21,563 bases of DNA, from the NCBI GenBank assembly GCA_022539475.1, contig VCMS01000511.1, positions 1 to 21,563 on the forward strand, given 5' to 3'. The notes below the pieces were generated by a model. It was not told the origin of the DNA, ran no database searches, and saw only the letters and a program-made list of their open reading frames with translations. Origin of the DNA: Gracilaria domingensis (lineage: Eukaryota > Rhodophyta > Florideophyceae > Gracilariales > Gracilariaceae). Positions within the stretch are counted from its first letter, which is position 1. Each line of letters opens with the position of its first letter. Positions 554-21,563 of this stretch are shown piece after piece. The translations under genes and the position numbers were made by a program.

Positions 554-1267
554 CTATACTCGGGATTCCGATGGTATCCGAACGGATTGGGCGATTCTGA
601 GTTTGGTGGAGACCGGTTTCGGTGTCGGCGCCTCTTTAGCGACAGGCAAGGAGACACGCTTGCGCGACGCGTTCCGGAATGTCTTCCGCACTATTGCAAT
701 CGACGAGCCATCAACCATTTCTACGGTTCTGGCCCTGGGGCGTATAGCTTCCAAGAAGCGATCACAAATATGAGAACCCAGAATAACGGGTGCTGCAAGT
801 GCTTTGCAGACAACAAAATCCAGGTGCAACAAGTACGTTCCGAGTCTCATCACGATAGATAAGTGACCCACCGTGCGTATCGGGCAGTTATTTGTGTCGG
901 CGATATCCAAGTTCGGACTGTGGCGAATATGTTCCCGAAGTGCGGGTGGTATCAACGCGGTGTGAATCAGATTGGGCGCAGCGCCTGTATCCAAGACGGA
1001 TAATTGACGTACCATGTACTGGTTTGATAAAGCTAAGTCGGCGTACACTTTGTAATTCCGCTCAGCCATTATCATGACCCGATCCGGGTTTCGCAAATTG
1101 CGGGAGAGAATCCACGGTCGATGCAACACTCCGAGGAGTTTCGAGTCAGCATCTGTATCAACAACCCTCCTGAAGAGGATTCGAATTGCCGGGGAGTGAA
1201 GCGGTGACGCCTCAGACGTCCTCTGCTTCGACTCAGAAGACGCACCTCCCGTAGGGGAGACTCTCAA
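554..1267 (-). pseudogene. pro: Retropepsin-like aspartic protease of E1
   Basis: The 237-codon minus frame contains the active-site motif LDTGAAPNLI, with the catalytic Asp-Thr-Gly at 983-991. About 65 residues later comes the flap/strand motif VILGSHICDRFLEAIRP, the second conserved signature of retropepsins. The enzyme works as a homodimer inside the particle and cuts Gag-Pol into mature proteins. The core domain looks intact, but the frame is separated from Gag by the broken interval to its right, and from the following linker by a stop or frameshift near 554. It is therefore called a broken part of a polyprotein and not a free-standing gene. About 85 residues precede the active site. Confidence 0.8.
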
Positions 1268-1855
1268 GTCTAGTTTTTCGGGGCAGGTTCGACTTCCGAT
1301 TGCGGTTCATTCCCACCTCGGGACTCCAAATGAACCCCGTTTGCCAGTGTCGAATCCTTCAACCCATGGTTGGGGTGTGTATCGATGTAGGTTGAGACGG
1401 CTGTTGTCGCCCGTACTTGGCTTTCGAATCCTCATATGAGGCAGATGGCACACGTTCCCGTTCTTCTGGGGTCAAAGACTCCTACTGTACGATTACTTTC
1501 GGCATCTCCCTCAAGGGAAACGAGCACTGAGGTGAGACATGTCCGTGTTGATAAAACATGTGACATATCAGCGACACCGATTTATCTAGCGAGCGTGCAG
1601 CCGCTGGTCGTTGAGGTCGTTTATCGTCATCCTGGGTGTGCGAACCGAGTGTGGTTGTTGGCGTAGGCCAGCGATGGCGCAGGAACCTTAGAGTTCCCCA
1701 TATACCCCACAGGGTCTGTATCCATTGTTTTCCCTGTAGTGGTTGAGAGTATCTTCGAAGTTCCTACTGAAATAGGATTTACCGCCAATTGGACCTGGTC
1801 ATAGTCCACAGATGGGCGGTTATCCTGTAACAGGGAGAGAGATGTCTCAGATCCT
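1268..1855 (-). pseudogene. Degraded Gag-protease junction of E1
   Basis: Between the Gag stop and the protease frame no single minus frame stays open. The longest is 1627-1809, a 60-codon frame reading VQLAVNPISV...PSLAYANNHTRFAHPG. In Ty3 elements this interval normally codes the nucleocapsid end of Gag and the N-terminus of the protease. A Cys-containing snippet (PCGVYGE) near 1700 might be the relic of a zinc knuckle, but the required CCHC spacing is not there. Frameshifts have broken the polyprotein here. Confidence 0.4.
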
Positions 1856-3184
1856 TCAGCCAGGAGAGCTTTCTTGAGCCTGTGTGCTGGCTTCCGTCTC
1901 GCTCGGAAAGTATTTCTCAGTCTGGACGTAGTGAACCGATTCCAAGTAGGAGATCTTTCTGTTCTGCTCCCGATAATGGGATACTAGCGCCCGGATGGCG
2001 GGGTCCAATACTTTCACAAACATTGTGCACCTTTCAGCTGAGGAATAAACGTTACCGCAACGGTGAAATGCTTTGTTCAAGCGCATTGAATAACTCGTTT
2101 CTGTTTCCCCCGAATTCTGCTTTGTCGCCCGTAGGGCCAAAATAGCGTCTGGGATCGCAGTGTCACTGGCATACGACCTCAATAGGTAATGAACGCCTTC
2201 GGGCCAACACGTGACACCGCCTTCCGAGGTTCTCGCTGATCCCCAAACGGAGTGAAATTGATCTTCTGCCATCCCTTTTAGGAAATATGGGAGGGCCACA
2301 TAGGTCTTTGCTTCACTCATACAGATTATGTCCGCTTCCTGCATGAAGCGTGCAAAATCCAACACCATAATTGGGTCGTCACCGCTGAAATCTTTCGTCT
2401 GTAGAGTGATCTGCATTCGGCGGATGTAATACTTCACTCGCCCCGTGCTATGGGCATTGAATTCGCCTGAGGCGTTCTGTAACCGATAATAACGGTATGA
2501 AAGCAGTTTTAGGTATAACGGATTCGATGGTTTCAACTCCCTGAGCCCCTTGTGTCTCTTTCCCTTAGCACGGGAGCGAATGGCCCCCTGGGTGACAAAG
2601 GTCGCCTTAGAACGTGTCGCTCGAGACCGACGTCGGTGACTACCTTTCCTGTTCGACGAGGATGAAGAAGATGTCGAGGTACCCGACGATTGGATGGAGG
2701 AGTCAGAATCGGACGAATCTGAATATGCGTGAACTTTCCTTTTGGACTTCCGGGATTTGCGCTTCATTGAGCGGTGAGCTGAGCCTTCTGAGGCGATTGG
2801 GTATTCTTTGGCTACAGCCTCATCCATGCGGATGATAGCCTCTATGTTTTCCAAACGACTCTGTAAGCGAGTGGGGCTCACCCGAGCTTCTTCAATAAAA
2901 GCGGCATACTCCGCTCTGAACACAGCGGGTTCTCCAAGACACTCCAAAATGGAGTTCACATCCTTACGCAGGAGTCGAATTTCTCCCGAGTAATCCCTAA
3001 CATGGGCATCTTGGAGACGATGCCGAAGTTCGGTTTGTTGTTTAAGAAGATCCACGAGGAAGATGTTGATAACACTCAATCGTGAGTCCAATAAGGTGTA
3101 CTCACCCGAGTCCAGCGCTTCGAGGCGGGCTGCCTGTGAAGGCGTTTCCACCAGCGGTGTAGGCTCCACAGGAGGAGGTTCCAT
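1856..3184 (-). CDS. gag: Ty3/gypsy Gag (capsid) protein of E1
   Basis: This 442-codon frame has no internal stop. Residues 1-130 are polar with leucine-rich helical stretches and probably form a coiled coil. Residues about 135-215 form a strongly basic and Ser-rich segment (SMKRKSRKSKRKVH, a Ser run, RRRSRATRSK) that could bind nucleic acid. Residues about 235-420 are the retrotransposon Gag core: a TGRVKYYIRRM.. segment, FSGDDPIMVLDFARFM, an ALPYFLKGMAEDQFHSV helix, TCWPEGVHYLLRSY and RCGNVYSSAERCTMFVKVLDP. Gag assembles the cytoplasmic virus-like particle in which reverse transcription occurs. No clear CCHC zinc knuckle is seen within the frame. The ATG at 3184 is the first in the frame, but the frame is open upstream to about 3336, so the true start may be earlier. 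Assignment to Ty3-type Gag is by motif style; the oomycete affinity is inference. Confidence 0.82.
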   Translation of the reverse strand: MEPPPVEPTPLVETPSQAARLEALDSGEYTLLDSRLSVINIFLVDLLKQQTELRHRLQDAHVRDYSGEIRLLRKDVNSILECLGEPAVFRAEYAAFIEEARVSPTRLQSRLENIEAIIRMDEAVAKEYPIASEGSAHRSMKRKSRKSKRKVHAYSDSSDSDSSIQSSGTSTSSSSSSNRKGSHRRRSRATRSKATFVTQGAIRSRAKGKRHKGLRELKPSNPLYLKLLSYRYYRLQNASGEFNAHSTGRVKYYIRRMQITLQTKDFSGDDPIMVLDFARFMQEADIICMSEAKTYVALPYFLKGMAEDQFHSVWGSARTSEGGVTCWPEGVHYLLRSYASDTAIPDAILALRATKQNSGETETSYSMRLNKAFHRCGNVYSSAERCTMFVKVLDPAIRALVSHYREQNRKISYLESVHYVQTEKYFPSETEASTQAQESSPG

Positions 3185-3681
3185 GACCGGTATCGGTACT
3201 CTAGAAAGCTCCTGCGGTACGAAAACGGCTGAGGCTGCATTCCGACCGTTCGGATCGCGATCGATATCTCCAGTCTCGGGAACAGACCTACGGGAGCGCG
3301 GGGCAGCAGGGGGTGCTGCTCCACTCCTTTAGACTGATCTGTTGCTCGAGTTTCCTCGTGAAGGGGGAGGTATTCTGCAGATATGCGTCCCAAGGACGGG
3401 AAGAGTACCAAAAACAACCAAATGATTCCGGAATGCGGGGTAGAGGTCAGATCTACCCGATAAGGGTCTTTCCAACCACCAAGGTGGGTAATTCCACTTC
3501 TAAACCAACCTGAAAAAGGTGATCTTCCCATAATTCGACTTCTAAGTCAGGAGACCACTTGTGGTGCAGACTCAGAACGGATGTAACACGCACAGGATGT
3601 ACGAAGTCCTGCTTCTTGGGCGATGGTAACTGGGTGGACGAGCCTCTGTTGACACCGAGGACCTGGGTGTAAAACCAGTAA
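3185..3681 (-). other. E1 leader (PBS region and possible Gag N-terminal extension)
   Basis: This stretch lies between the LTR end and the first Gag ATG. The Gag frame stays open upstream of that ATG to a TAA near 3336, reading a Pro/Arg-rich segment, so Gag may begin further upstream than 3184. A second minus frame (3076-3531) overlaps and reads a sequence ending in LPLHEETRATDQSKG that could be the original upstream part, one frameshift away. A primer-binding site should begin within a few bases of 3681. The sequence there (minus sense TTACTGGTTTTACACC) contains TGG, but I could not match it to a particular tRNA. Confidence 0.45.
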
Positions 3682-4553: not shown

Positions 4554-4870
4554 CCTCCCATCCTATGCAGTTCTGACAGTGTTGGACCAAAACTCACGGG
4601 ATATTTCTAAAATTACTAAAAAATTCACTCCATCCAAGCAACCCAATAGTGGTTCACATGCACACATTCCGGGTCCTGATCCACGTCATCGTGTGAGAGC
4701 AGGAAAGATGGATGGCCGCACCGTCGGCAGTCGCCGGCGGGCAAGCCCTTTATTTGGGGTTGCTACGTGGCCACTCTATGTGGCCGTGATAGCAGCGTGA
4801 TAACATCTGTTGGCCGGGGGCGACCGGCGCTTATCTGGTATGAAAGCATCAATTGATGCGTGAAAACACA
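4554..4870 (-). repeat. copia 3' LTR (interrupted by E1)
   Basis: The start was placed at TGTGTTTTCACGC (minus sense, 4870), directly after the purine tract CATCAGGGGG. The sequence 4700-4860 aligns with 10500-10640, including a shared CTCTAT.TRG box, CCAAATAAA and a CAGCGACTGCC-like core. The alignment weakens left of about 4700. E1 begins at 4553, so the end of this LTR and its target duplication are displaced out of the window. Confidence 0.65.
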
Positions 4871-5321: not shown

Positions 5322-5324
5322 CTG

Positions 5325-5668
5325 CCCTAGAAGAACTGAAACGCTACGAGTGGCGTACAAAAAACCTTGAAATCTGGCTCAATGGCGTTCTATAGGCGTA
5401 AATTAGGTCGAGCGATTGGCGTACAATTTTGGGCTCCTACGCCACTTGCACGCTAATAGAGTAAGGTACAATAATTACACTACTGGCGTACAACGCATGT
5501 TTACCATACGTATGCCATTCGTGACCTATACGACCCATGGCGCACAAATGGCGTAGAAGGCCAAAATTGTACGCCAATATCTCGATCTAACGTACGCCTA
5601 TAGAACGCCAATGAGCCAGATTTCAAGGTTTTTTGTAGGCCACTCGTAGCGTTCCCGTTCTCTTAGGG
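5325..5668. mobile_element. MITE-like inverted-repeat DNA element with CTG target duplication
   Basis: Two arms of about 125 bp, 5325 to about 5452 and about 5541-5668, are inverted copies with few mismatches. The outer ends are CCCTAGAAGAAC and CCCTAAGAGAAC; the inner part shares CGCTACGAGTGG, a C-TTGAAATCTGGCTCA block and GTTCTATAGGCGTA. About 88 bp lie between the arms. Both ends are flanked by CTG (5322-5324 and 5669-5671). Cutting out the element plus one CTG brings the copia RNase H reading frame on the two sides into phase across the STSG-type motif, which independently confirms the boundaries. There is no transposase, so it is non-autonomous. The motif TGGCGTAC recurs at 5351, 5417 and 5484 and inverted at 5569, as subterminal transposase-binding repeats would. 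The superfamily is unresolved: a 3-bp duplication fits PIF/Harbinger or CACTA. Confidence 0.85.
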
Positions 5669-5830
5669 CTGATGTGAAACATCGCGTTCCTATGTCGGCG
5701 GCGAAGTCGGTTTCGGAGTTCGACGTAAGCTTTGTGATTGGGACACTTCGTGGATAGTGCAGTCCGTGGGTGGTGGTGCCTTTCAGTTATCGGCCTACTG
5801 ATTTGATATGTTTCCAATGGAGTTCAGTTG
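5669..5830 (-). pseudogene. copia RT-RNase H junction and RNase H N-terminus
   Basis: The minus reading contains a WKHIKSVGR-like helix (the copia HW..lkRvlrYLkgT region) and a TTHGL-like strand. It then reads an SETDFAADIGTRC segment, equivalent to the usual YSDADWAGD..rRSTSG, before running into the inverted-repeat element at 5668. Frameshifts occur near 5780 and 5740, so the match is spread over two frames. The first RNase H Asp (in DFAAD) is retained. This is the upstream half of the domain whose other half is at 4881-5321. Confidence 0.65.
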
Positions 5831-6647
5831 GGTTTGTTAAGGCAAGAGCCAGCTTTGCGGTAAAAAATGCAATGCCTGGCCGCGTGCCCTCTGAGAGCCA
5901 TCTGAGTCAACCGATCAACTGTACGTATAGACTTTTCGACTTCGACGAGAGTACGTCGTTGGCGTCGGGCGGATGATATCCAAAGCCGGATGTGTACGGG
6001 ATGCGTTTGCCATCGGCCTTTTCTAAGCCAAGCAGTGTAAGAATTTGTTGCAAAGTATGCGGTTTCGATATGGATATTGCGGCGTTGTCGTCTGTGGTGA
6101 TTTTCCATCCGAGATATTGGGTCGGCGAGCCCAAATTGTTTGATCGCATACTTTGCTGGAGCCGGGAGAAAAGGTTATCTATTCTGTGTCGGTGAGTAGC
6201 CGCAATGATGAATTCGTCTATATTTAGGACGAAAATGGTGTACTGATTGGTGGCGGTCCCAGCGACAAAGAGTGCATGGTCGTCGGTGGATTGTTGGAAG
6301 TCGAGAGACTGTAGGTATTTCCACCCTTCTTCAAGATAATAGTGTCCGGCTGGAGCAGCTCCAGAGAGATTGAGTATCAGCTGACCGCCTGGTTCTTGAT
6401 GCGTGTATGAGCCATCAAATTTTGGATGTTGTCGAACATATAGAGGAATCGTGCGTTGGTACTTCTCGTGCGTGAAGGCTGATTTTATGTCGAGGTGTTC
6501 AAGTTCCAATCCGTGTCGTGCAGCCCGTGCCGATATCAGCCGAACCATGGATTTCTGTGAGAGGTGGGCAGCGGTTTCATCCCAATTGAAATCCTTGTGA
6601 GGTATCATTCTGTCCCCGCGGACTGAGCATCTGGGATTGCGGCTCAT
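5824..6647 (-). pseudogene. pol: copia reverse transcriptase
   Basis: The longest copia frame here is 246 codons (5907-6647), continued by a second frame to 5824. It reads RGDRMIPHKDFNWDETAAHL, LDIKSAFTHEKY (first catalytic Asp at 6489-6491), PLYVRQHPKFDGSYTH, GGQLILNLSGAAPAGHYYLEE, and LNIDEFIIAATHRHRIDNLF in place of the usual VDD motif. It continues with LGSPTQYLGWKI and GKRIPYTSGFGYHPP. The enzyme would copy the element RNA into DNA. The catalytic pair is Asp-Glu instead of Asp-Asp (6213-6218), which should abolish or cripple polymerisation. The frame is otherwise long and clean, so decay here is mainly by substitution. A frameshift near 5910 moves the reading to the LTQMALRGH.. segment. 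Confidence 0.88.
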
Positions 6648-7105
6648 GATAAATCCTTCTGGTGTGCGTTTGTATTTTTAAGTCATGGTAAGTTGGATCA
6701 GTCTCTTTGGGAGCTGTTTCTACGGCATCTACTTAACAGCTTTCAGCTTGTCGAGCTTCGCGAGCTCTTCGTTGTGTGCTGTTGCCAATTGGTGGGCGTC
6801 GGGTACTTGTTTGCCTGTTTGCGGCTTGTTGGTGCTCGAGTGGTGTTTATGATTGTCCCTGGCGTGGGGTGCAGAATGTGGTTGTTAAATGCGTTGGAAT
6901 TTGATTCCACGGGCTCTGTAGATCGAGAAAATGGGTGAAAGTCTGTTTTCGGAGTTTGTATGTATCTTCCTGCGCCAAGAGCCATGACGAGGATGTTTTG
7001 AGAGGTGACGGCGTACATGTATCTGCAAGTTATTCCTCTGCTTTCCAGCTTGGATTGTAACTGGGCACTGGTGGGCAGTAAGGCATATCCAAGTCATCCA
7101 AGGGC
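6648..7105 (-). pseudogene. copia integrase C-terminal region and linker to RT
   Basis: The minus frame 6743-7018 reads RYMYAVTSQNILVMALGAGRY, then FHPFSRSTEPVESNSNAF, the usual beta-strand and Arg-Ser tail that follow the copia integrase core. After that comes a Thr/Ser/Gln-rich spacer. Left of 6743 the reading reaches LDKLKAV-like residues and stops before RT starts near 6647. The segment belongs to the polyprotein and is joined to the integrase core by one frameshift near 7097. Confidence 0.65.
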
Positions 7106-12240: not shown

Positions 12241-12273
12241 ACCCTCCACCCTGAACTGCGCCCGTCGCCGCCC

Positions 12274-12386
12274 CCGTCTGCGCTCGCTGCCGTGCGTCTG
12301 CCGCCCGTCTGCGCTCGCTTCCGTGCGTCTGCCGCCCCGTCTGCGCTCGCTGCCGTGCGTCTGCCGCCCCGTCTGCGCTCAGTGCT
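12274..12386 (+). repeat. Tandem repeat, 31-32 bp unit
   Basis: Units start at 12274, 12305, 12337 and 12369, the last one partial. Each reads CCGTCTGCGCTCGCTKCCGT and then GCGTCTGCCGCC. The near-perfect identity implies recent expansion. Open frames across it only translate the repeat (RRRTAASADG-type on the minus strand). Confidence 0.85.
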
Positions 12387-12415
12387 ACGCGCCGGCGCCG
12401 CGGCGCGCCGCCGAA

Positions 12416-12712
12416 GATGATGAGGTCGCGCGCTGCGGCGCGGCGGCAAAGAAAGGAAGCTGCGCGCCGCTTGCTGTGGCGCGCCAATGAGGATAATGAG
12501 GTTGCGCGCCGCGCGCTGCGGCGCGCATAAGGAAGAGGACAATGAAGTCGGGCGCCGTGCGCTGCGGCGCGCGTGAGGAAAAGGAAGATGAGGTGGCGCG
12601 CCGCGCGCTGCGGCGCGCCTGAGAACGATGAAGTCGCGCGCCGCGCGCCTCGGCGCGCCTGAGGCAGAGGGCGATGAGGTTGCGCGCCGTGCGCTGCGGC
12701 GTGCCTGAAACT
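12416..12712 (+). repeat. GC-rich minisatellite with hairpin cores
   Basis: About six units of roughly 42-60 bp, each GATGAGGT-x-, then a core GCGCGCCGCGCGCTGCGGCGC, then GC-TGAGGAARAGG-type sequence. The core is an interrupted palindrome (GCGCGCCGC, loop GCGCT, GCGGCGCGC). Units are seen near 12416, 12488, 12540, 12586, 12627 and 12674. The ARG/ALA-rich frames that cross it (for example 12385-12840 minus) are repeat translations, not genes. Confidence 0.8.
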
Positions 12713-12909: not shown

Positions 12910-13738
12910 GCCGTGTGACTACTGTTGTGCAAAACCCAGCGATGGGGAAAGACACGCAAAGGCGGTTCAGACCCTCTCTCAAGAGGCGAGCACAGCAGTA
13001 GAGCGCTCCCACAGGTACGACACGGCAATGCCGGGTGTAAGACCGGGGTCGACCCTTCCCAAGTAATGGAGGGAGCGAAGCGGCGAAGAAGAAGCGTCCA
13101 GCGGTAGAGAACACACGACACAAGTCGGCAGTAGCGTCACGTGCGTAGCACGCGGTACCCACGAGTGTGGCGATGACACGCGAGAGCGGTAATAGCCCAC
13201 GCGAGTGTGTCGAGCCACGAACGGTATGCACCGGTACACCAAGTAGTGCTACCTGTATAACAGGGACAGAAATAAAAGAAACACACACAAAGTAAACACG
13301 CGAAAGCGGTAGTGGTGTTAATGATGCCGCGAGGCGGATGATGAGCCCTGCACAAGGTGCCGACTCTCCGGGAGGAGGATATCGGTCACCAAGGGTGAAA
13401 CATCAGAGCCGAACACTCGGTTCGTTCGTTTACTTCCCCGACAATGGGTGCAGCTCAACCTACTAAGTAGTGTAGAGTGCAAACCCACTGTCAAGCGGTG
13501 TAGCGAAAATATCTAGAATAAACATCTAAAATACCCCAACTAATGGGTGCAAACTTCCCACACGTGTGTGACCCACCGGCTAAGCCGTGCGCCTCATAAC
13601 ACTAATTCTAATATTAAGTATACCCAAGAATGGGCTGATCTCACCAGTTACTCATACTGTGTGCCACCACCTCCCGGCATCGCCGTGCATGTTATGAATC
13701 GCATCAGCGAAGGAGTCCCGCAATCGCGTTGCACTACA
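12910..13738 (-). repeat. E3 3' LTR (outer end approximate)
   Basis: It starts TGTAGTGCAACGCG at 13738, directly after a purine tract, and aligns with the E1 and solo LTR starts. Shared blocks include TTCATAA.., GTATGAG, ATTAG near 13610, and CTAAAATACCCCAA with a CCCACTG block near 13480-13540. The outer end should be a CA 830-980 bp in; candidates near 12910-12930 are weak, so 12910 is an estimate. CGCGAGAGCGGT and CACGAGTGTG motifs recur inside (13145-13315). Frames such as 12866-13288 minus are regarded as non-coding LTR sequence. Confidence 0.65.
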
Positions 13739-13741
13739 TTT

Positions 13742-13755
13742 CCCCCTCCTTAGGG
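13742..13755 (-). promoter_or_regulatory. E3 3' polypurine tract
   Basis: The minus-sense CCCTAAGGAGGGGG, followed by AAA, sits immediately before the TG of the 3' LTR, the classic position of the plus-strand primer. It is also read as Pro-Lys-Glu-Gly at the end of a minus frame whose TAG stop (13734-13736) overlaps the LTR start, an arrangement common in compact LTR elements. Copies of the core occur at 17810-17821 and 286-299. Confidence 0.7.
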
Positions 13756-13800
13756 TGCGAGACGACCACGCGAGCGATTTCGTTTTCCTCCTCTGGAGTG

Positions 13801-13808
13801 TATTTAAG
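13801..13808 (+). promoter_or_regulatory. TATA-like box upstream of the antisense ORF
   Basis: TATTTAAG lies on the plus strand 168 bp before the ATG at 13976. The leader between them is strongly pyrimidine-rich (CTTCC and TCTC runs), a context often found around transcription starts. There is no direct evidence of use. Confidence 0.3.
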
Positions 13809-13975
13809 CACGTCGGCATGACGGTCTCCAATCCGGCCTCCCCGGTCTCTTCTAACGGCGACTCTGGTCCACCCCTCTCCACGCGTACTGCGGTAGTGTC
13901 TCCTCCGATACCTCGGCGCGCTCTCCTTCTCTCTCGCTTCCAGCGCTTCCTTCTCTTCCTCGCGCCGCTTCCGCG

Positions 13976-15858
13976 ATGCCTAACCCCAATCAGGGCGACG
14001 ATCAACCGCCTGTCGGGTCCCAAAACCAATACTTTGGTGGGTTTGCTGGTGTTTCACACCTTCCTCCTCTGGAGTGCCTCCTTCACAGCCGGCCTCCGCT
14101 GGCGTTCCGCTCCCTCAACCGGTCAATCCGGGATTCCATACTGCCCCTCTTCCCCAGACGGGTGGTCAACTTCCGCCCCCGGCGTCTGTACCGCAGTGGA
14201 ACTGGATCGCTCCTGCTGTTCCGGTCCAACCGGTAGTCAACCCGTATGCGGGCGCGTGGGCGTCGTATGACGAACTCGACAACGTCGACCCTCGCAGCAA
14301 TCCCACACCGTTCTTACGGGCTCCGTGGTTTCATCCGCAAGGCGTGACCAATCGTTCCCTCGTCGAGGCGTATGCCGATGGCAGTGGTCACCTCCCAGGA
14401 GGCGTGCACGTCTGGATGACGGTGACGTTCGACTGGCATTACCGGATTACCGTGCCTACCAACGCGCTCGTCCACCATCGTGGTCAGTCGCACAACTCCG
14501 CCCGAGCGGCCATGGTTCGCGTAGCGCACATGCGCATGTTTCGCACGTACTCAGAGCGCCCGATTCCGGCGAACTTCCGTTTCGACGTGGCCTTCTTCCG
14601 AACACTCGGCGAAATCCAATATGGAGAGAATCTTGCCCGGCTCGCCGGTGTGGTGGAGCGTTACCAGAACGTCCCCGTTCACCAGGATCTCCTGTGCTGG
14701 ACCCGTCCGCTTCTGCGTGCAGAATTTCGATATCTCCCACGCGTACCGCGGTCCAACTACCTTCAAACAATGATCCGTCCCGAACGACGTGCCCGCTCCC
14801 GATGGGGTTACCTTATCCCGTATCAAAACACGGAGTCAAACCGGATTCGTCCGCGCCACATGCGTGGGAGATATGTTCCTCTCCCCTTTGTGTGGGCGTC
14901 CGTGGAGGTCTGCCGTGGTTGTTACGTGGAACTCCCCCCCTGTCTCACGTATGTGGGTAGTAGGCTCGTGACAAACCCGTTTACGGGATGGTGGAGCGTT
15001 GTCCTCACGGAGTGGGCGGCGCGAACAGCGGTGTATCTCCTCAACGAGGTATATGACCAGTATCGACTGTGGTTCATTCTCCCGCGCTTGCGGCAACTCA
15101 TCCGAGCCTTGGATCTCACTATCCGCTTGGCGGTAATGGAAACTTCTCGGAAGTCATGTGCCTCTTGCGAGTGATTGATGGAGTCGACTGGAACCAGGTT
15201 CCTCGTTCGCAGAGCGCGCGCGACGAAGGCGATCTTGCCATTGACCGGTCTCCGGGTCGCAGGTTCCCACTGTCGGGTGATTACATCTACTACGACCCTG
15301 GACACCGGTGCCGATTACCAACGCCGAGGCGGAACTTCTTCGGAATGCCGAGCGAGTCATCCCTCCGGGGCACCCAACGGGTTTCATCATGACTGATGAG
15401 TTCTTTCACCCTGTCGGGGATCAAAACATCATGGTTGATGACGCTCCGATGACGGTGACGACTATGGCGATGACAACTTCGCAGCAGCTCCGGTGGAGGG
15501 GGCAGTACCTTCTTCAGCAGTGCCAGGTCCCCAAGCGGGTGTCGACGCGATCTTCTCGACTCCGGTGAATGTTCCCTCTGCGCCTCTAGCGGCTCCTGGG
15601 CCCGTAGTGGCTCCTGTTCCTACGCCTGTGGCGGTTCCGACTCCAGCGGAGAATGTTGCTTCGCCTGCGATGGCGGCGTCGGCTACGCCGAACGAAGCCG
15701 CGAACGCGGGACTTACCGACGAAGCACGGGCTGCCGTGATAGCTCAATTCCTCAGCGAGGCTGGTATCTCCGACTCGACATCTGGCGACGTCTCGCAGAT
15801 GCGCGACGCGCTAATTGCGCAGCTTGCGAACGCTGGAGACCAGCAGGAATCCGAGTAA
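13976..15858 (+). CDS. Unknown protein, antisense ORF inside Ty3 element E3 (frameshifted)
   Basis: I do not recognise this protein. It starts MPNPNQGDDQPPVGSQ at 13976. The reading changes frame near 14055, near 15120-15150, near 15300 and near 15445, and ends at TAA 15856-15858, giving about 620 codons in all. The longest clean stretch is 14074-15174. Seen in order: a Pro/Gln/Ser-rich N-terminus (PQPVNPGFHTAPLPQTGGQL); a globular centre rich in Arg, Tyr and Trp (GVHVWMTVTFDWHYRITVP, FRFDVAFFRTLGEI, VEVCRGCYVELPPCLTY); an acidic run (DDGDDYGDD); a Pro/Ala/Val-rich stretch; and a C-terminal helical piece (LTDEARAAVIAQFLSEAGI, MRDALIAQLANAG). Codon third positions are GC-rich, and the breaks look like one-base indels, partly in homopolymers. 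It lies between the E3 chromodomain and 3' LTR on the opposite strand, the position of the antisense extra ORFs known from some plant Ty3 lineages. No RT, capsid or envelope motif is visible. Confidence 0.6.
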
Positions 15859-16041
15859 CTCGTGCAGCTTCTCCTCTAGGGAGTCCTTCCTAGCTGATAC
15901 CCAATAACTTGGCCGTTGTGTGCTCGACTAGCGAGCCACAACATAGTAACATTGACCAGTAAACTGTGAACTTCTCTTGATCTCAAGACTTCTTCCCTTC
16001 TTCCAAGGTGTATACTTCTTAACTTCTCCCTTCCGGGGTGA
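15859..16041. other. Non-coding interval after the antisense ORF
   Basis: Apart from the hairpin at 15915-15942 and pyrimidine-rich plus-strand sequence leading into the minisatellite, nothing recognisable is present. Confidence 0.4.
15915..15942 (+). terminator. Hairpin downstream of the antisense ORF
   Basis: GTTGTG-T-GCTCG, a short ACTAG loop, then CGAGC-CACAAC forms an 11-bp stem with one bulged T, 57 bases after the stop codon at 15858. It may be a 3'-end structure of the antisense transcript; a eukaryotic terminator role is not established. Confidence 0.3.
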
Positions 16042-16240
16042 TCTTCCTCTTACGAGTGCTTCTTCCTCTTACGAGTGCTTCTTCCTCTTACGAGTTCATC
16101 TTCCTCTTACGAGTGCTTCTTCTCTTCTGAGCTTCCTTTTCCTCTTCATAGAGTCTTCTTCCTCTTGCGAGTGCTTCTTCCTCTTCTGAGCTTCCTTTTC
16201 CTCTTCATAGAGTCTTCTTCCTCTTGCGAGTGCTTCTTAA
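16042..16240. repeat. Pyrimidine/purine minisatellite (19-bp and about 59-bp units)
   Basis: Four 19-bp units TCTTCCTCTTACGAGTGCT run from 16042 to 16117, the third ending in TTCA instead of TGCT. A second, longer unit of about 59 bp combining TCTTCTTCCTCTTGCGAGTG with a CTTCTGAGCTTCCTTTTCCTC segment and CATAGAG is repeated about 2.3 times to 16240. On the minus strand it reads Glu/Lys/Arg-rich peptide (for example HSQEEEDSMKRKRKLRRGR), so it may be an expanded charged region of Pol or simply repeat. Confidence 0.8.
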
Positions 16241-16428
16241 CTTCTCCTCTTCCTGAGGGCGTTACTATTCGAACTTCAACTGTCCTCTCAATAGAGTGTC
16301 TCCTCACCACGCGAGTAGCGGTACAGTACTCCTCTGGAGGTTGTCGCAGCGTTCCTCGATTGAGTGTTGTGGTTCGTAGAACCGTTCGTGCGCGGTACGC
16401 GATAAGCTTCCGTCTCCAGCGACGTGTG

Positions 16429-16645
16429 TTAACCGACCATCGCTTGATGTAGATTAGCCGGCAACGCCGTGTTAGTACGACGGTGGTACTGCACGATCTT
16501 CGATCGGGGTAGGTGCTCCACGGGTTCGTCCGAGTCCCGCGACGGCGGATAGCCATACCAGCGTACCTGGTACTGAACATACCCTTCGGGTTCCAACTGT
16601 GCCCCACTATGTGGTCGACAACGAACTCTTTCGAGTAAACTCCCC
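16429..16645 (-). pseudogene. Chromodomain of E3 Pol
   Basis: The minus reading has YSKEFVVDHIVGHSWNPKG, then, one frame over, YQVRWYGYPPSRDSDEPVEHLPRSK and IVQYHRRTNTALP, ending in a TAA at 16429-16431. The pattern (E-x-x-V-x-x-I..h, y-x-V-R-W-x-G-Y, then D-x-x-E-P-x-x-x-L) is that of chromodomains at the C-terminus of chromovirus integrases. These read histone methylation marks and direct insertion to heterochromatin. Tyr/Trp residues of the methyl-lysine cage region (RWYGY) are present. A single frameshift near 16585 splits the domain. It is separated from the integrase core by an unusually long linker. Confidence 0.75.
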
Positions 16646-17886
16646 GCTCGAGCTCTTCCTGCGAAGGGTCGTCAGCGTGTCGCGGCGGTGCCGTTACATA
16701 GTCACCAGCGGTGCTGTGAGTTTCTCCTGACGCCTTCGGCGGTAAGTGTGTCCTCCGCTGAGTGGTCGCTTCCGGAATCCGGGTCTTCTCAAGCAGCTTC
16801 GCCGCTTCGGCGGGTCCGCGAACGGCTAGTTCATGCGGCAGTTCCCGTCTTGACGGTGAAGGCGAACGCGGAGGCGGATTGTTCACCACGGCACGTGCCG
16901 GTTCACGTGACGACACGCGACGTTTCGCGGTGGTGGCACTGCCACGAGTTGTGATTGGCCCATTGTGTGGCGCGCGCTGCGCACCCCAAGATTTGTGGTG
17001 CGCAAGCGCTCCTGCAGATGCAGTGTGCATTTTCCCTAAATCAGGGCTGTAATCCGTATCTCCAGCGAGCGGTGCGCCGTCATGACTTATCGAAACGTCA
17101 TGACGTGCGACTTGCGACTTCCCCAAAGCTGGGTGCAACGGTACACTACCATTACCCGAACCGGGGTGCTTGATCTTCGCTTCAGCGAGCGTCTTCTCTT
17201 CTTCCTGCTCTGCAGTGTCAACGATACCGGGATCTGCCGTGACTACCCTACAGCGCGCCTGCGAAGGCGGTTTGCGGCGGTCGTCAGCGGCGGAGTGCGG
17301 CGACTGCGCGTCCGGAATACTCCGTGATACAGTATCCAGCTTCGCTGTAGCCTTGCTCTGCCGAGAAGTCGGGTGTTCTTGATCAACTTCCGGCCTTGCC
17401 GTGGAAACTTCGCGAACGAGAGCATGCTCCGCGTCCTGCGTCCGTGCGACGATGGGCGCGTGTTCCTGTGACAATTCCCCAGATGGGTGAGCAATACCAG
17501 TATCCTGGGACAACCTTGAGTCCGTTCGTTGCGTGCGGTGTCCTTCCTGAAGGTCGCGATCCTTCGTGGAAGGTTGTGTATCCTCCGCAGAGTTCTGCGC
17601 GACAGCGGCCGACTGCGGCGCGTCCTTCGCGACTTTCAACACGCGACAGCGGGTGATCCTTCCCACTGACAGTGGTGTCCGTAGCAACTACGTCTTCGAC
17701 GGTGTCCTGAGGCGACTCTGCCTCTGCTTCATTACTTTCCCGTGAATCACGGTGCTGCGACGGTAGCGACACCGGTGACTCACTCTCCGCGACAACGCGT
17801 GAATTCCCTCCCCTCCTTAGGTGGAGCGTTACGGGGAGCAGTCATCACGTCTGTTGACGGTGTGATAGACGCCGTGAAACGCGATT
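16646..17886 (-). pseudogene. Low-complexity linker between GPY/F region and chromodomain
   Basis: A 513-codon minus frame (16146-17687) covers most of it without a stop. It is rich in Ser, Thr, Pro, Ala, Arg and His, with no hydrophobic core (SQDTGIAHPSGELSQEHAP, HPTSRQSKATAKLDT, SPSPSRRELPHELAVRGPA). It begins after the GPY/F segment near 17887 and ends where EELERGVYSKEFVV opens the chromodomain. Several short inverted repeats lie in the DNA, including TGCGCACC/GGTGCGCA at 16978-17004 and two copies of CGTCATGAC at 17078 and 17096. A polypurine-like copy lies at 17810-17821. In most chromoviruses this spacer is far shorter. It is probably disordered; its function is unknown. Confidence 0.6.
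17810..17821 (-). promoter_or_regulatory. Internal copy of the E3 polypurine tract
   Basis: The minus-sense CCTAAGGAGGGG matches the core of the 3' polypurine tract at 13742-13755 in the same orientation, about 4.07 kb upstream in element sense. The continuing purines (AGGGAA) extend it. It could serve as a central polypurine tract, as described for Ty1 and lentiviruses; this is inference. Confidence 0.4.
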
Positions 17887-18300
17887 TCACCAGCGGTGTA
17901 TGTTCCGATATCTCGGCTTGGGACGATATAATCGGTACCTCTGCGAGACCCCTTGCAGGGTTGCAAAGCCCACAGTAGGTGTAGTGTTCTGCGACGAGAA
18001 TTCTCGGTCTGTGTCTGTCCAGCTTCCTGCTGTGAATCTGAAACTATTTCCGTGTGCACGGTTGGGCCTGCACAAGCGATCGCGGGAGAAACGCTCATGA
18101 GCGTCGCCAACTTCCAGTACGACTGTGTCCGTATTCACGCTAATAACGCGGTATGGACCATCAGCGATGGGTGAAAGCTTGTGGCGCCGCTCTTTTTCAG
18201 GGTTGTAGTACTCCCTTCCTGACAAAGGCGAGGTTTCCCACTTTCAGTGGCGGTAGTGGTCTCCGTACCCGGGCATCAAAGTTCCGCTTGTAGCGTGTTG
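17887..18300 (-). pseudogene. Integrase C-terminal GPY/F region of E3
   Basis: The minus frame 17887-18225 reads YYNPEKERRHKLSPIADGPYRVISVNTDTV, then VLEVGDAHERFSRDRLCRP. The motif h-K-L-x-P-x-x-x-GPY-x-V, followed by a beta strand and a -x-x-S-R-D-R-L- ending, defines the GPY/F module that follows the integrase core in Ty3 elements. It contributes to integrase multimerisation and DNA binding. A frameshift near 18200 separates it from VGNLAFVRKG, the preceding strand (read at 18197-18451). After RLCRP the low-complexity linker starts. Confidence 0.78.
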
Positions 18301-19341
18301 TGCTTTCGCCATTGACGACCTGGCGACAGGTACCATTGCGGATAACCACTGTTCCATTGCAAGTAGTGATCCCGTATTGACGGTGACGTATCCAGCTTTG
18401 CTGATGGTTCAACCGCAACTGGCGGTGGTGTCCGTGAGAGCACGAGCTCAAAGGGCGATAAACCAGTTACTCTGTGAACTTGCGTATTATACGCATACGT
18501 CACGGTATCCGTGTAGAGATCCAAGTTTTCGGGTGTTCAACTGTATAAGCCGCAACGGCGGAGAGCATTGTCGGTTAAACCGTTCGACTTGCCATTGCAT
18601 TGGGGATGAATACGTCGTCGTGAAGAGATTCTTCACGTCGAGTACCGACAGACATCCTGGAAGAAACGTGCAGTAAACTGCGGACCATTATCTGAGAGGA
18701 GATTGACCGGGGGACCGTAGACCATAACCCAATGGCGAACGAATGCCTCCGCAACACTGCGTGCTGTAATCGACTTCAACGGAACTGTCCGGACTAGCTT
18801 ACTGAATCTATCCGTAATAACGAGTAAGAACCGATTTCCTCGGGAAGTACGCAAGAACTCGCCGAGTATATCGATGGCAATAAACTCCAACGGCGCCCCT
18901 TGCGGGGAAAAGTGTTAGTTTCTTCGCATGGCGACGCTGTTTAACTCGCTCTCGAGCACAATGTGTACACGCCTTCACGGTGGTGTAGCAGTCCAACGCT
19001 AACGCGGGCCAGTAGAAATCCCGACGCAGTGTCGTGTATAACCGCTTAGCACCCGGATGGGAAGCCATCCGCGAGTGATGCGAGAGATGCAATACCCTTG
19101 TTTGTAAGGAGTGAGGAACCCACAATCTGTGGGGTAGAAGAACCACTCTGACGAGGTACTGTGGTTCGACCCCGAACGGGATGTTAGCCACCACATATTT
19201 GGGAGCGTATCCTCGTACAGAACGGGTTCCAGATTTGCTGTTCCACGCACCAGCTATTCTGGAGTAATGGGGAGAATGTACCGTGTATTCCGGGTCCTTC
19301 ACGTCTGCAGACGAGCAATCATCACAGATGTTCGTCGACAC
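18276..19341 (-). pseudogene. Integrase zinc-binding domain and catalytic core of E3
   Basis: Frame 18808-19341 reads the HHCC domain: VLHLSHHSRMASHPGAKRLY, FYWPALALDCYTTVKACTHCARER (His..His..CxxC). Frame 18633-18890 reads the core: FIAIDILGEFLRTSRGNRFLLVITDRFSKLVRTVPLK (first Asp 18870-18872), WVMVYGPPVNLLSDNGPQFTARFFQDVC (second Asp 18690-18692; 60-residue spacing, normal). The Glu-containing segment near 18590 is split by one-base gains and losses. Frame 18276-18524 continues with DLYTDTVTYAYNTQVHRVTGLSPFELVLSR. The enzyme would insert the cDNA. Motifs are well preserved while at least four frameshifts interrupt them. Confidence 0.88.
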
Positions 19342-20101
19342 GATGTCGTAGTTTCATCACCCTCCTCCACTGAGGAAAACAGGGGATATCTTCATCCTCG
19401 TGCATCGAGGGGTAAAGCTTCACCTTCCGTTCTAGACGTGAAGAGCAATCCGCCTTGCGCGTTTAAACAATCCCTTCTTATAGGTGACCTCGTAGTACTC
19501 GGCAAGCCGAAGACGCCAGAACGCATTAAGCCGTCGGAAATGCTCCGTGACTGACATTACCCAAGCCAAGGCGGAATATCCGGTATTTTGACGGTACAAA
19601 GTGAGCACACGCATAAGATATGGTCGGTAGAGTCTGCCAAAGCCATACCAGGCGAGACACTCTGTCTCAGGATAACCGAGTAATTGCGTCTCGTTTGCAT
19701 ACAGTTTGAGTGTACAGAAACGCATAGCCAAATTGGTTTGCGTTCCTTCGGGTGTAGTCTGAAAGAGCGCGCAGCAATTTGGTATCCCCTCGAATCCGTA
19801 TCCACGGTTGTACGGCACCCGTTTCTTTGGCTACTGCTACTACGGGTGCCGTGGTAACGCTCTTTTAAGAGAGTTGAAAGGCCCTCCACTGCGTGGGGGG
19901 CGTAAGATGGATACCATAATTTGGGCGGTCTTGTCCTTCTTCAAGGAGTTCGTTTGAGCGGTCCCGCATCTTCGCGAGAGCGAGAAATGAACCGTCCTTA
20001 TAACCGTTGCACGTAGCGCCTGAAAGTGAGCGTAGCATCTGGTCTGTGTAGTGGGGTGCTTGCCTTTTGGAGGGACTTCGACGGAGCTTCCTCGATCAGT
20101 A
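19342..20101 (-). pseudogene. RNase H region of E3 Pol
   Basis: The minus frames read CCALFQTTPEGTQTNLAMRF, LGYPETECLAW, RPYLMRVLTLYRQN and TEHFRRLNAFWRLRLAEYYEVTYKKG. These correspond to the Ty3 RNase H order: vLxQ..g..PiaYaSr.L, Y.x.E.EcLAVV, FRPYLyG..., TDN.aL, and R..rW.l.LqEYdFe..Y+kG. The ECLA glutamate is kept. The usual Asp of the TDN motif reads as Arg-Gln (YRQN), and the opening Asp motif is lost in a frameshift. To the right, near 20020, NSLKKDKTAQI marks the connection domain after RT. Four frame changes were seen. Confidence 0.78.
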
Positions 20102-20900
20102 ACCGTCTGGACGTATGACATGGCCCAGATACTTCACTGAGTGAAGTGAAAAACTCACACTTCCTCAATTTTGAGAAGTGAATTCCAGCATCCCGCAAGG
20201 GTCATTATCTCCCGAACATGCATGTTTCGAGGTGATGCGTCTCAAACTGTTTTGAAAACCCGATGATGTCATCGAGGTAATAACCAAGCAACTCCGCCAT
20301 TTGAAGCGAGCTAACAAAAAAAAATGTCCCCAGAGCAGGCTGAAACGATAGAGAGAGAGGCGTTCAGTTACGCCGAACGGATACGCTTAAAGCGGTATAG
20401 TTCCTGACTGACAGGTAATACGCGGTCTTGTCACGGAGTCTTCCGTCTACCTGGGTACTGTATGCCAGTAACGCCCAGTTTGCTCAAAGTTGGAGAAAAC
20501 AGAGCATGCGGCCAAGCGAAGTCGATATACTCGTCATCACGAGGTATGGGGTAACACGTCTTTGACGGTGACATCGTTCAAGCGACGACTAGTCGATCAA
20601 AAGCGCCAGGACCCGTGGGTTCGGAGCCAGTACAACTGGGAGATGCCCACGGCGACATCGGCCGGTTTTTTTTTCCTATCCCAACGGGGCAGTCGGAGAG
20701 CATTTTGGTGATCTAAAACTCTTCCTTCTGTCCAGTGCTTTCGGGCTGCCCGTAAGGGTGCGAGCAAGTCGGTTGGTCTCCGGCAGGAGGTCAATCGGTG
20801 TTCCGTAGTTGAAACGTCTTCGAGGGAACGCATCCCACATTGGTGTAAACTCTCGCAAATGTTGCGCAACTCTCTCACGGTGTGAAACCGGTATGACCGA
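20102..20900 (-). pseudogene. pol: Reverse transcriptase of E3
   Basis: Read from the right: LREFTPMWDAFPRRRFNYG and TPIDLLPETNRLARTLTGSP (linker and fingers), KKKPADVAV, LNDVTVKD (the aLNxxTvKd.yPlP motif), FEQTGRYW (motif A; the usual LDLxSGYW Asp reads Glu), DKTAYY, a PFGVTE motif, and the catalytic ELLGYYLDDIIGFSK (20262-20282 codes YYLDDII). It then reads KYLGHVIRPDG (20102-20134), the standard Ty3 fLGHvis.dGi motif. The enzyme would copy the element RNA. Frameshifts near 20600, 20450 and 20380 and a stop near 20195 break it. Confidence 0.87.
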
Positions 20901-21563
20901 GATTCAAATTCTTCTAGACTCCTTGAATAGGGTCATCCTTGTCATATACTCGTATGGAGCGGTCCAAACGAGTCGACGTTATAGTAGGATGCGGAGGCGT
21001 AGTCGAGAGATATCGCTACACACTCATAGATTATTGCGGTGAAGTCAGTGCGTTCTTTAAGCAACGCCGAGCATTCGGGGCGTCACCTTTGTAGGGGATG
21101 TGCGAAGCGCCGTTAGGTCGGTTCGGGTAAGAGACAGTATCCATTACTTGGTTCTCAACCCCAAGCATACTGGGGCTCTCTTCGCCCAACGTTTTGGCGC
21201 AATCAGTAACGCCCGAAAGGTGGGTTGGCGGGTTGATTGGATTTTGATTATGCAGACTTCGGTTCGGCTCGAGCACGGGCTTGACCTATGAAGCTACTGT
21301 TCTCGTATACACTTAAGCCGACAGTTGTTCAGTAGAGTTAATCCACGCAACAGACACTCACGCGGATGTGCGGCAGTACATCAACCCAACCCTCGGGACT
21401 TTCTTCCGGAGGAGAAATAGCAGCGTCCTGCGTATATATATTGCACTCGTAGACAAACGTGAGCTTCGGGACTCTTCGGAGTGTGCAGGAAATGCCTGTG
21501 TAGGGAGCGGGTAGTGGTACAAGCTAGCTGACGCTCGGCGTAAGATGAGCGACGACAATCGGT
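20901..21563 (-). other. Probable upstream part of E3 Pol, not resolved
   Basis: By position this should be the protease-RT linker and protease of E3. Short minus frames exist, such as VENQVMDTVSYPNRPNGASH near 21150 and SPPEESPEGWVDVLPHIRVS near 21390. I see no Asp-Thr/Ser-Gly motif or ILG strand, and none of the frames is long. Confidence 0.35.

Follow-up and report, generated by a model that had tools for sequence, protein, structure and literature searches.

The 21,563-nucleotide stretch of Gracilaria domingensis DNA that we analyzed (hereafter the window, contig C511) contains a plus-strand gene, termed aORF, that lies inside a chromodomain Ty3 element. The gene, which is convergent with Pol, occupies the interval that separates the 3' LTR from the chromodomain end of a Ty3 polyprotein on the minus strand (Table 1). 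We lean toward the view that aORF is an accessory gene owned by the chromovirus, one that would be promoted from the LTR and act in trans, and that its lysine-free protein would be shielded from ubiquitin turnover. The assignment of aORF to the element is based on its location inside the LTRs, its convergent orientation, its occurrence in three diverged families and the presence of relatives in other Gracilariales. Our literature search recognized no published description of this aORF family.

Table 1. Positions in the window of aORF and of the parts of the element that carries it.
Feature	Position	Strand	Remarks
3' LTR	12923..13738	-	816 bp, 98.2% to 5' LTR of C45 copy, no gap
Polypurine tract adjoining 3' LTR	13739..13751	-	read on minus strand
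aORF, family A element	13818..15858	+	alternative in-frame start 13976
aORF longest unbroken frame	13984-15174	+	
aORF search-query stretch, 366 codons	14074..15171	+	conserved Arg-rich core; end residues cross frame change
Tandem repeat in the aORF-pol interval, unit of 19 bp	16042..16238	not assigned	
Pol	16429..21563	-	C-terminal chromodomain; integrase core 18633-18914

The carrier element is a Ty3 chromovirus, as evidenced by the order of its reverse transcriptase, RNase H and integrase together with a C-terminal chromodomain. Specifically, Pfam places RVT_1, RNase H, H2C2, rve and Chromo in that order in the Pol of copy L021, and the Chromo domain was also found in copy L032. The C45 copy has identical 816-bp LTRs with TG..CA ends, a 5-bp target-site duplication and aORF inside, as well as a 720-codon gag frame and pol on the minus strand; it is the one copy in which both the LTR ends and the duplication typical of Ty3 elements were found. 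Gag has no Pfam match and was named from its place and from a zinc-knuckle-like motif recognized by eye in the C45 copy. The LTR edge that an initial annotation of the window had set at 13738 is correct. The Pol of the window is broken by indels toward the contig end, which truncates the element inside Pol.

We searched the alga's own 77.9-Mb, 680-contig assembly and obtained at least 116 matches to the aORF query, with 27 of the listed matches (counted by eye) spanning nearly the whole query in stop-free frames of 710-725 codons. Some contigs are redundant, so that copy numbers are inflated; for example, L018 and L019 have a common flank and several pairs of matches are equal in score. Twenty copies were taken with their flanks, 16 belonging to family A and four to family B. 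The aORF frames of family A (n=16) contain 624-725 codons, with exactly 721 in 13 of them, and those of family B (n=4) contain 651 codons each. A third family, C, has an aORF of about 610 codons and accounts for 77 main rows among the matches listed, 57 of which have no stop and 52 of these at least 600 open codons. The identity of aORF is 47-49% between families A and B, 42% between A and C, and 39% between B and C.

The initial annotation had proposed checking whether aORF always sits antisense beside the same Pol, and this placement is borne out by the flanked copies: in 19 of 20, aORF is convergent with polyprotein frames that run for a long distance on the minus strand. The match of the twentieth copy, L018, to other copies ends at oriented position 4660, before Pol. 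The family C copies L032 and L034 also have aORF convergent with the polyprotein. For L031, which has a third C-type Pol, the 7 kb read downstream of this Pol hold family A-like Gag and Pol frames and no aORF was found across them. We also counted arrangements by coordinates, entering 112 of the aORF matches listed and excluding four short second pieces. Among these listed matches, 53 of 112 have a convergent integrase match at 3.2-4.1 kb, four have an integrase within 9 kb solely in another arrangement, and 55 have no integrase match nearby; note that the integrase query was that of the window (family A), with family B partners not expected among the matches listed. For family C, 28 of the 77 matches listed have a convergent integrase partner at 2.6-3.6 kb, two have a partner within 10 kb in another arrangement and 47 have none, while 28 of the 48 C-type integrase matches listed occur with aORF and 20 occur without it.

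The plus-strand coding region that the initial annotation had placed inside a chromodomain Ty3 element is confirmed. When 1000 first-order Markov sequences were generated to match one open copy in length and base composition, the longest open stretch in any of the six frames was at most 433 codons (mean 198) as compared with the 721 codons observed. The frame also carries signs of selection. Within family A (16 copies, 120 pairs) the mean dN is 0.021 and the mean dS 0.051, giving a ratio of 0.41, and within family B (four copies, six pairs) the corresponding values are 0.023, 0.035 and 0.67. Between families A and B dN/dS is 0.22, at a dS of about 2.6 that is near saturation and with 4 of 64 pairs yielding no dS. 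We further used a tree-free redistribution test in which the observed changes were reassigned randomly over matching bases in 1000 runs. The samples for this test were 15 family A copies (L018 was excluded, as it has a flank in common with L019), four of family B and five of family C, with the frames of L014 and L015 shortened and that of L036 being 509 codons. Family A exhibited 94 synonymous, 134 non-synonymous and 1 stop changes versus 63.7, 158.2 and 7.1 expected (p about 0.001), family C exhibited 226, 139 and 1 versus 101.5, 251.7 and 12.8 (p about 0.001), and family B exhibited 33, 67 and 0 versus 28.1, 68.6 and 3.3 (p 0.16). The initial annotation had regarded a dN/dS near 1 among copies as telling against the gene; N/S relative to neutral is 0.57 in family A and 0.25 in family C, whereas family B is not significant. 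A synonymous excess is also seen in minus frame 2, which has its third positions in common with the aORF frame (p 0.016 in A, 0.077 in B and 0.001 in C), and no such excess was found by this test in the remaining frames. Judged from these substitution patterns, purifying selection appears to act on aORF in families A and C. We weighed a chance open frame, an explanation that the GC-rich sequence (61%) and the non-significant result in family B would accommodate. Its probability is practically nil given the Markov control, the synonymous excess of the aORF frame in families A and C, and the existence of homologous frames between families at 39-49% identity.

As read in the window, aORF contains four frame changes. 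When the window is compared with the copy in contig C154, the interval from 12921 to 17499 exhibits no mismatches and seven indels, and the left flank common to both is 99.6% identical over 1341 bp with six gaps. Past 17499 the number of indels in the window climbs, reaching 45 per 500 bases at 21000-21499. Over 17500-21563 this increase is steep toward the contig end, with mismatches staying low until about 19000. A steep rise of indels with few mismatches is a sign of unpolished long-read sequence, and on this comparison C511 most likely represents the C154 locus a second time, in a poorly polished form. Thus, of the reading with four frame changes given by the initial annotation, the frame itself is real but the changes are probably assembly errors and not decay, because the flank matches C154, there are no mismatches and the C154 copy of aORF is open over 721 codons.

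Several other features were observed in the window. On the minus strand, 554-3328 contains frames that resemble a Ty3 protease and Gag and would belong to a further element of this kind, with the Gag frame resembling, by eye, the Gag of family A. Also on the minus strand, 5907-6677 and neighboring frames code for a Copia-type reverse transcriptase (RVT_2). There is an inverted repeat at 5324-5453 and 5540-5669 (130 nt, 88% complementary, 86 nt apart), and GC-rich tandem repeats are present at 12263-12708 immediately outside the 3' LTR.

In regards to the start of aORF, the in-frame ATG at 13976, the position where the initial annotation began the gene, stands as an alternative, but an earlier in-frame ATG is present at 13818. 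The distance from the LTR edge to the first ATG is 79 nt in family A, 43 nt in family B and 53 nt in family C, with the edges in B and C taken from the conserved TACA end and polypurine tract and not from an LTR pair. Because the first ATG is just 43-79 nt away from the LTR edge, we infer that an antisense promoter within the 3' LTR may drive aORF transcription. The ATG at 13976 is 237 nt away from the LTR edge; if family A copies start there, a promoter outside of the LTR would have room, and the argument is weaker for this family. The TATA-like box noted upstream of the gene is present as TATTTAA at 13801 and also occurs in L021 (family A), but no such box was found before the ATG in the one family B and one family C copy examined.

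Antisense genes near a 3' LTR have been described in other retroelements. The HTLV-1 HBZ gene, which codes for a bZIP protein, is transcribed from the 3' LTR. As in HTLV-1 and other deltaretroviruses, aORF is an antisense gene at the 3' end of its element, and transcription from the 3' LTR would be a further likeness; unlike HBZ, aORF has no match to bZIP or any other Pfam domain. Antisense TRP28 ORFs are carried by the Retand (Tat lineage) Ty3 elements of plants, and PMC11963269 suggests a regulatory role for these ORFs and compares them with retroviral antisense genes, naming those of HTLV and STLV. Retand elements (PMC11963269) and those analyzed here are alike in that an antisense ORF separates pol from the 3' LTR, that tandem repeats occur in this part of the element (only in family A among the families analyzed here), and that recently active copies have retained the ORF. 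However, Retand elements are non-chromoviruses of flowering plants (PMC11963269), whereas the elements described here have a chromodomain (L021, L032) and reside in a red alga. The presence of the chromodomain rules out membership of the carrier in Retand. The likeness of aORF to TRP28 is one of position and strand; aORF has no Pfam match. The earlier proposal that a chromodomain Ty3 element carries an antisense accessory gene is supported, the position of the gene being comparable to that of the Tat/Retand antisense ORFs. By analogy, the best reading is that aORF codes for a trans-acting accessory protein and is a positional counterpart of the Retand and HTLV antisense genes.

A natural loss of aORF bears on its mode of action. 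Contigs C476 and C176 contain the same LTR and Pol around an unrelated 2.2-kb stretch that occupies the place of aORF and has no frame over 150 codons (L030:1947-4159, also L033). Among the matches listed, this stretch occurs at 40 places and is 100% identical in 18 of these, and of the 102 A-type integrase matches listed 24 are of this subfamily (A') and 53 are with aORF, two sets that may overlap. The integrase matches of C176, C476 and C33 lie within 1851-codon frames. A' is a young sister subfamily with a long open Pol that has lost aORF, yet has spread. This indicates that aORF is not needed in cis, and the spread of A' with its long open Pol after losing the gene would be explained if the aORF protein acts in trans. 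The success of A' could instead mean that aORF is not needed at all.

The named protein relatives of aORF are one protein of Gracilariopsis chorda (41% identity, 98% query coverage) and two proteins of Agarophyton chilense, with the family C aORF exhibiting 65-72% identity to a Gracilariopsis chorda protein. Homologues are present in the own genome and in other Gracilariales, an order of red algae, and the oomycete host suggested by the initial annotation is not supported. A further database protein, P0006 (337 aa, source lgn), has a Gag-like piece (by eye) fused to a 42-residue aORF-like piece and is probably a gene call that spans a rearranged copy. The initial annotation had also suggested a captured host gene. 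Searches of 5.8 billion proteins, judged from the proteins alone, found no recognizably cellular relative, and no stand-alone host gene was found. Capture of a host gene is therefore very unlikely, as is a module that hitch-hikes on the element for its own benefit: A' does show that the segment is replaceable by unrelated DNA, but a cellular relative was not recognized in these searches and the place of aORF in the element is constant across the three families.

The aORF protein is composed of a variable N-terminus, a core that is conserved over about 350 residues and in which 22 columns are invariant in 10 sequences (first Met included), and an acidic tail. The acidic run and Pro/Ala tail described earlier are present, with a tail pI of 4.1 in all eight relatives. 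No Pfam match at E <= 1 was obtained for P0001 or for the pieces taken from the window, and 10 aligned aORF relatives gave just E3_binding, at E 0.24, in one of them. PHROG and Pfam together yielded nothing past single weak matches (E 0.24-0.32), and no relative of solved structure was found. Predicted structures are of low confidence and have no matching fold, with the best match to viral predicted structures at E 4. A membrane span is not clearly indicated by hydropathy; means over 19 residues peak at 1.22-1.77, with the family B value of 1.77 exceeding the customary cut-off of 1.6 and other relatives reaching 1.22-1.52. These results make it highly improbable that aORF codes for a particle or structural protein (a second capsid or an envelope-like protein) from the antisense strand. 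Such a role would suit a large, multi-domain protein kept by selection and the one hydrophobic window of family B, but the lower values of the other relatives, the low-confidence models that lack a viral match and the spread of A' without aORF all argue against it.

The core has a pI of 6.3 to 9.8 across eight relatives, so that the nucleic-acid-binding protein suggested by the initial annotation is not supported in the sense of a generally basic protein. A more specific possibility is a nucleic-acid-binding regulator of the transcription or RNA of the element, as suggested for TRP28, with low lysine as a by-product. The position and strand are the same as in Retand, for which DNA binding is predicted (PMC11963269), and the aORF protein contains about 50 arginines, its core including Arg-rich stretches that are conserved. 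Nonetheless we consider this explanation somewhat unlikely, as the core pI is only 6.3-6.5 in four of the eight relatives, Pfam gives no DNA- or RNA-binding domain, and lysine depletion goes beyond the composition null in families A and B.

Specifically, the aORF protein has 0 lysines in 681 residues in family A, 2 in 644 in family B and 2 in 599 in family C, while Gag has 29 in 720 and Pol has 76 in 1740. Lysine is absent from 13 of the 16 family A copies, with 1-2 in the others. The four B copies have 1-3 lysines each, one C copy has 2, and nine database relatives have 0-6. A Markov null gave mean lysine counts of 9.8 (A), 10.1 (B) and 7.3 (C), with minima in 300 runs of 2, 3 and 1, respectively. 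Depletion of lysine thus exceeds composition in families A and B, with C falling within the null range. Arginine is kept, at 51 (A), 49 (B) and 52 (C). The features of a lysine desert, namely a long lysine-free stretch, retained arginine and conservation in relatives, are all observed, although more weakly in family C. In cellular proteins, lysine deserts protect against ubiquitylation, and viral proteins poor in lysine have also been reported (PMC10169902); the aORF protein likewise has long lysine-free stretches, retains arginine and ends in a disordered-looking tail. It differs from the lysine-desert proteins of the ubiquitin-proteasome system in having no ubiquitin-like, RING or similar domain match. 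By analogy, this lysine-free, arginine-rich make-up probably shields the aORF protein from ubiquitin-dependent turnover. A protein shielded in this manner could persist as a regulatory factor with a long lifetime, or could serve as an adaptor to the host ubiquitin system; either would favor expression or persistence of the element. Counting against this part of the reading are the depletion in family C, which is within the null, and the lack of a match to a ubiquitin-related Pfam domain.

A more far-reaching proposal, which we regard as unlikely and offer as speculation, is that aORF would be an HBZ-like gene that red-algal chromoviruses evolved independently and express from the LTR, whose lysine-free product of new fold would serve as a long-lived, trans-acting adaptor to the ubiquitin or regulatory machinery of the host, with young aORF-less elements parasitizing it. 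Under either version, aORF represents a gene family that is new but of a known kind, that of antisense accessory genes beside the 3' LTR, and its novelty lies in a new host group, a new element lineage and an unusual composition. Antisense genes in this position are already known from deltaretroviruses and from the Retand elements of flowering plants. A third case, from red algae and with no detected sequence relation to any described family, would point to repeated use of this position for regulatory genes. The many natural copies, the three diverged families and the natural loss in A' provide material for probing the function of the gene, and the near absence of lysine is a concrete, testable hint at its role.
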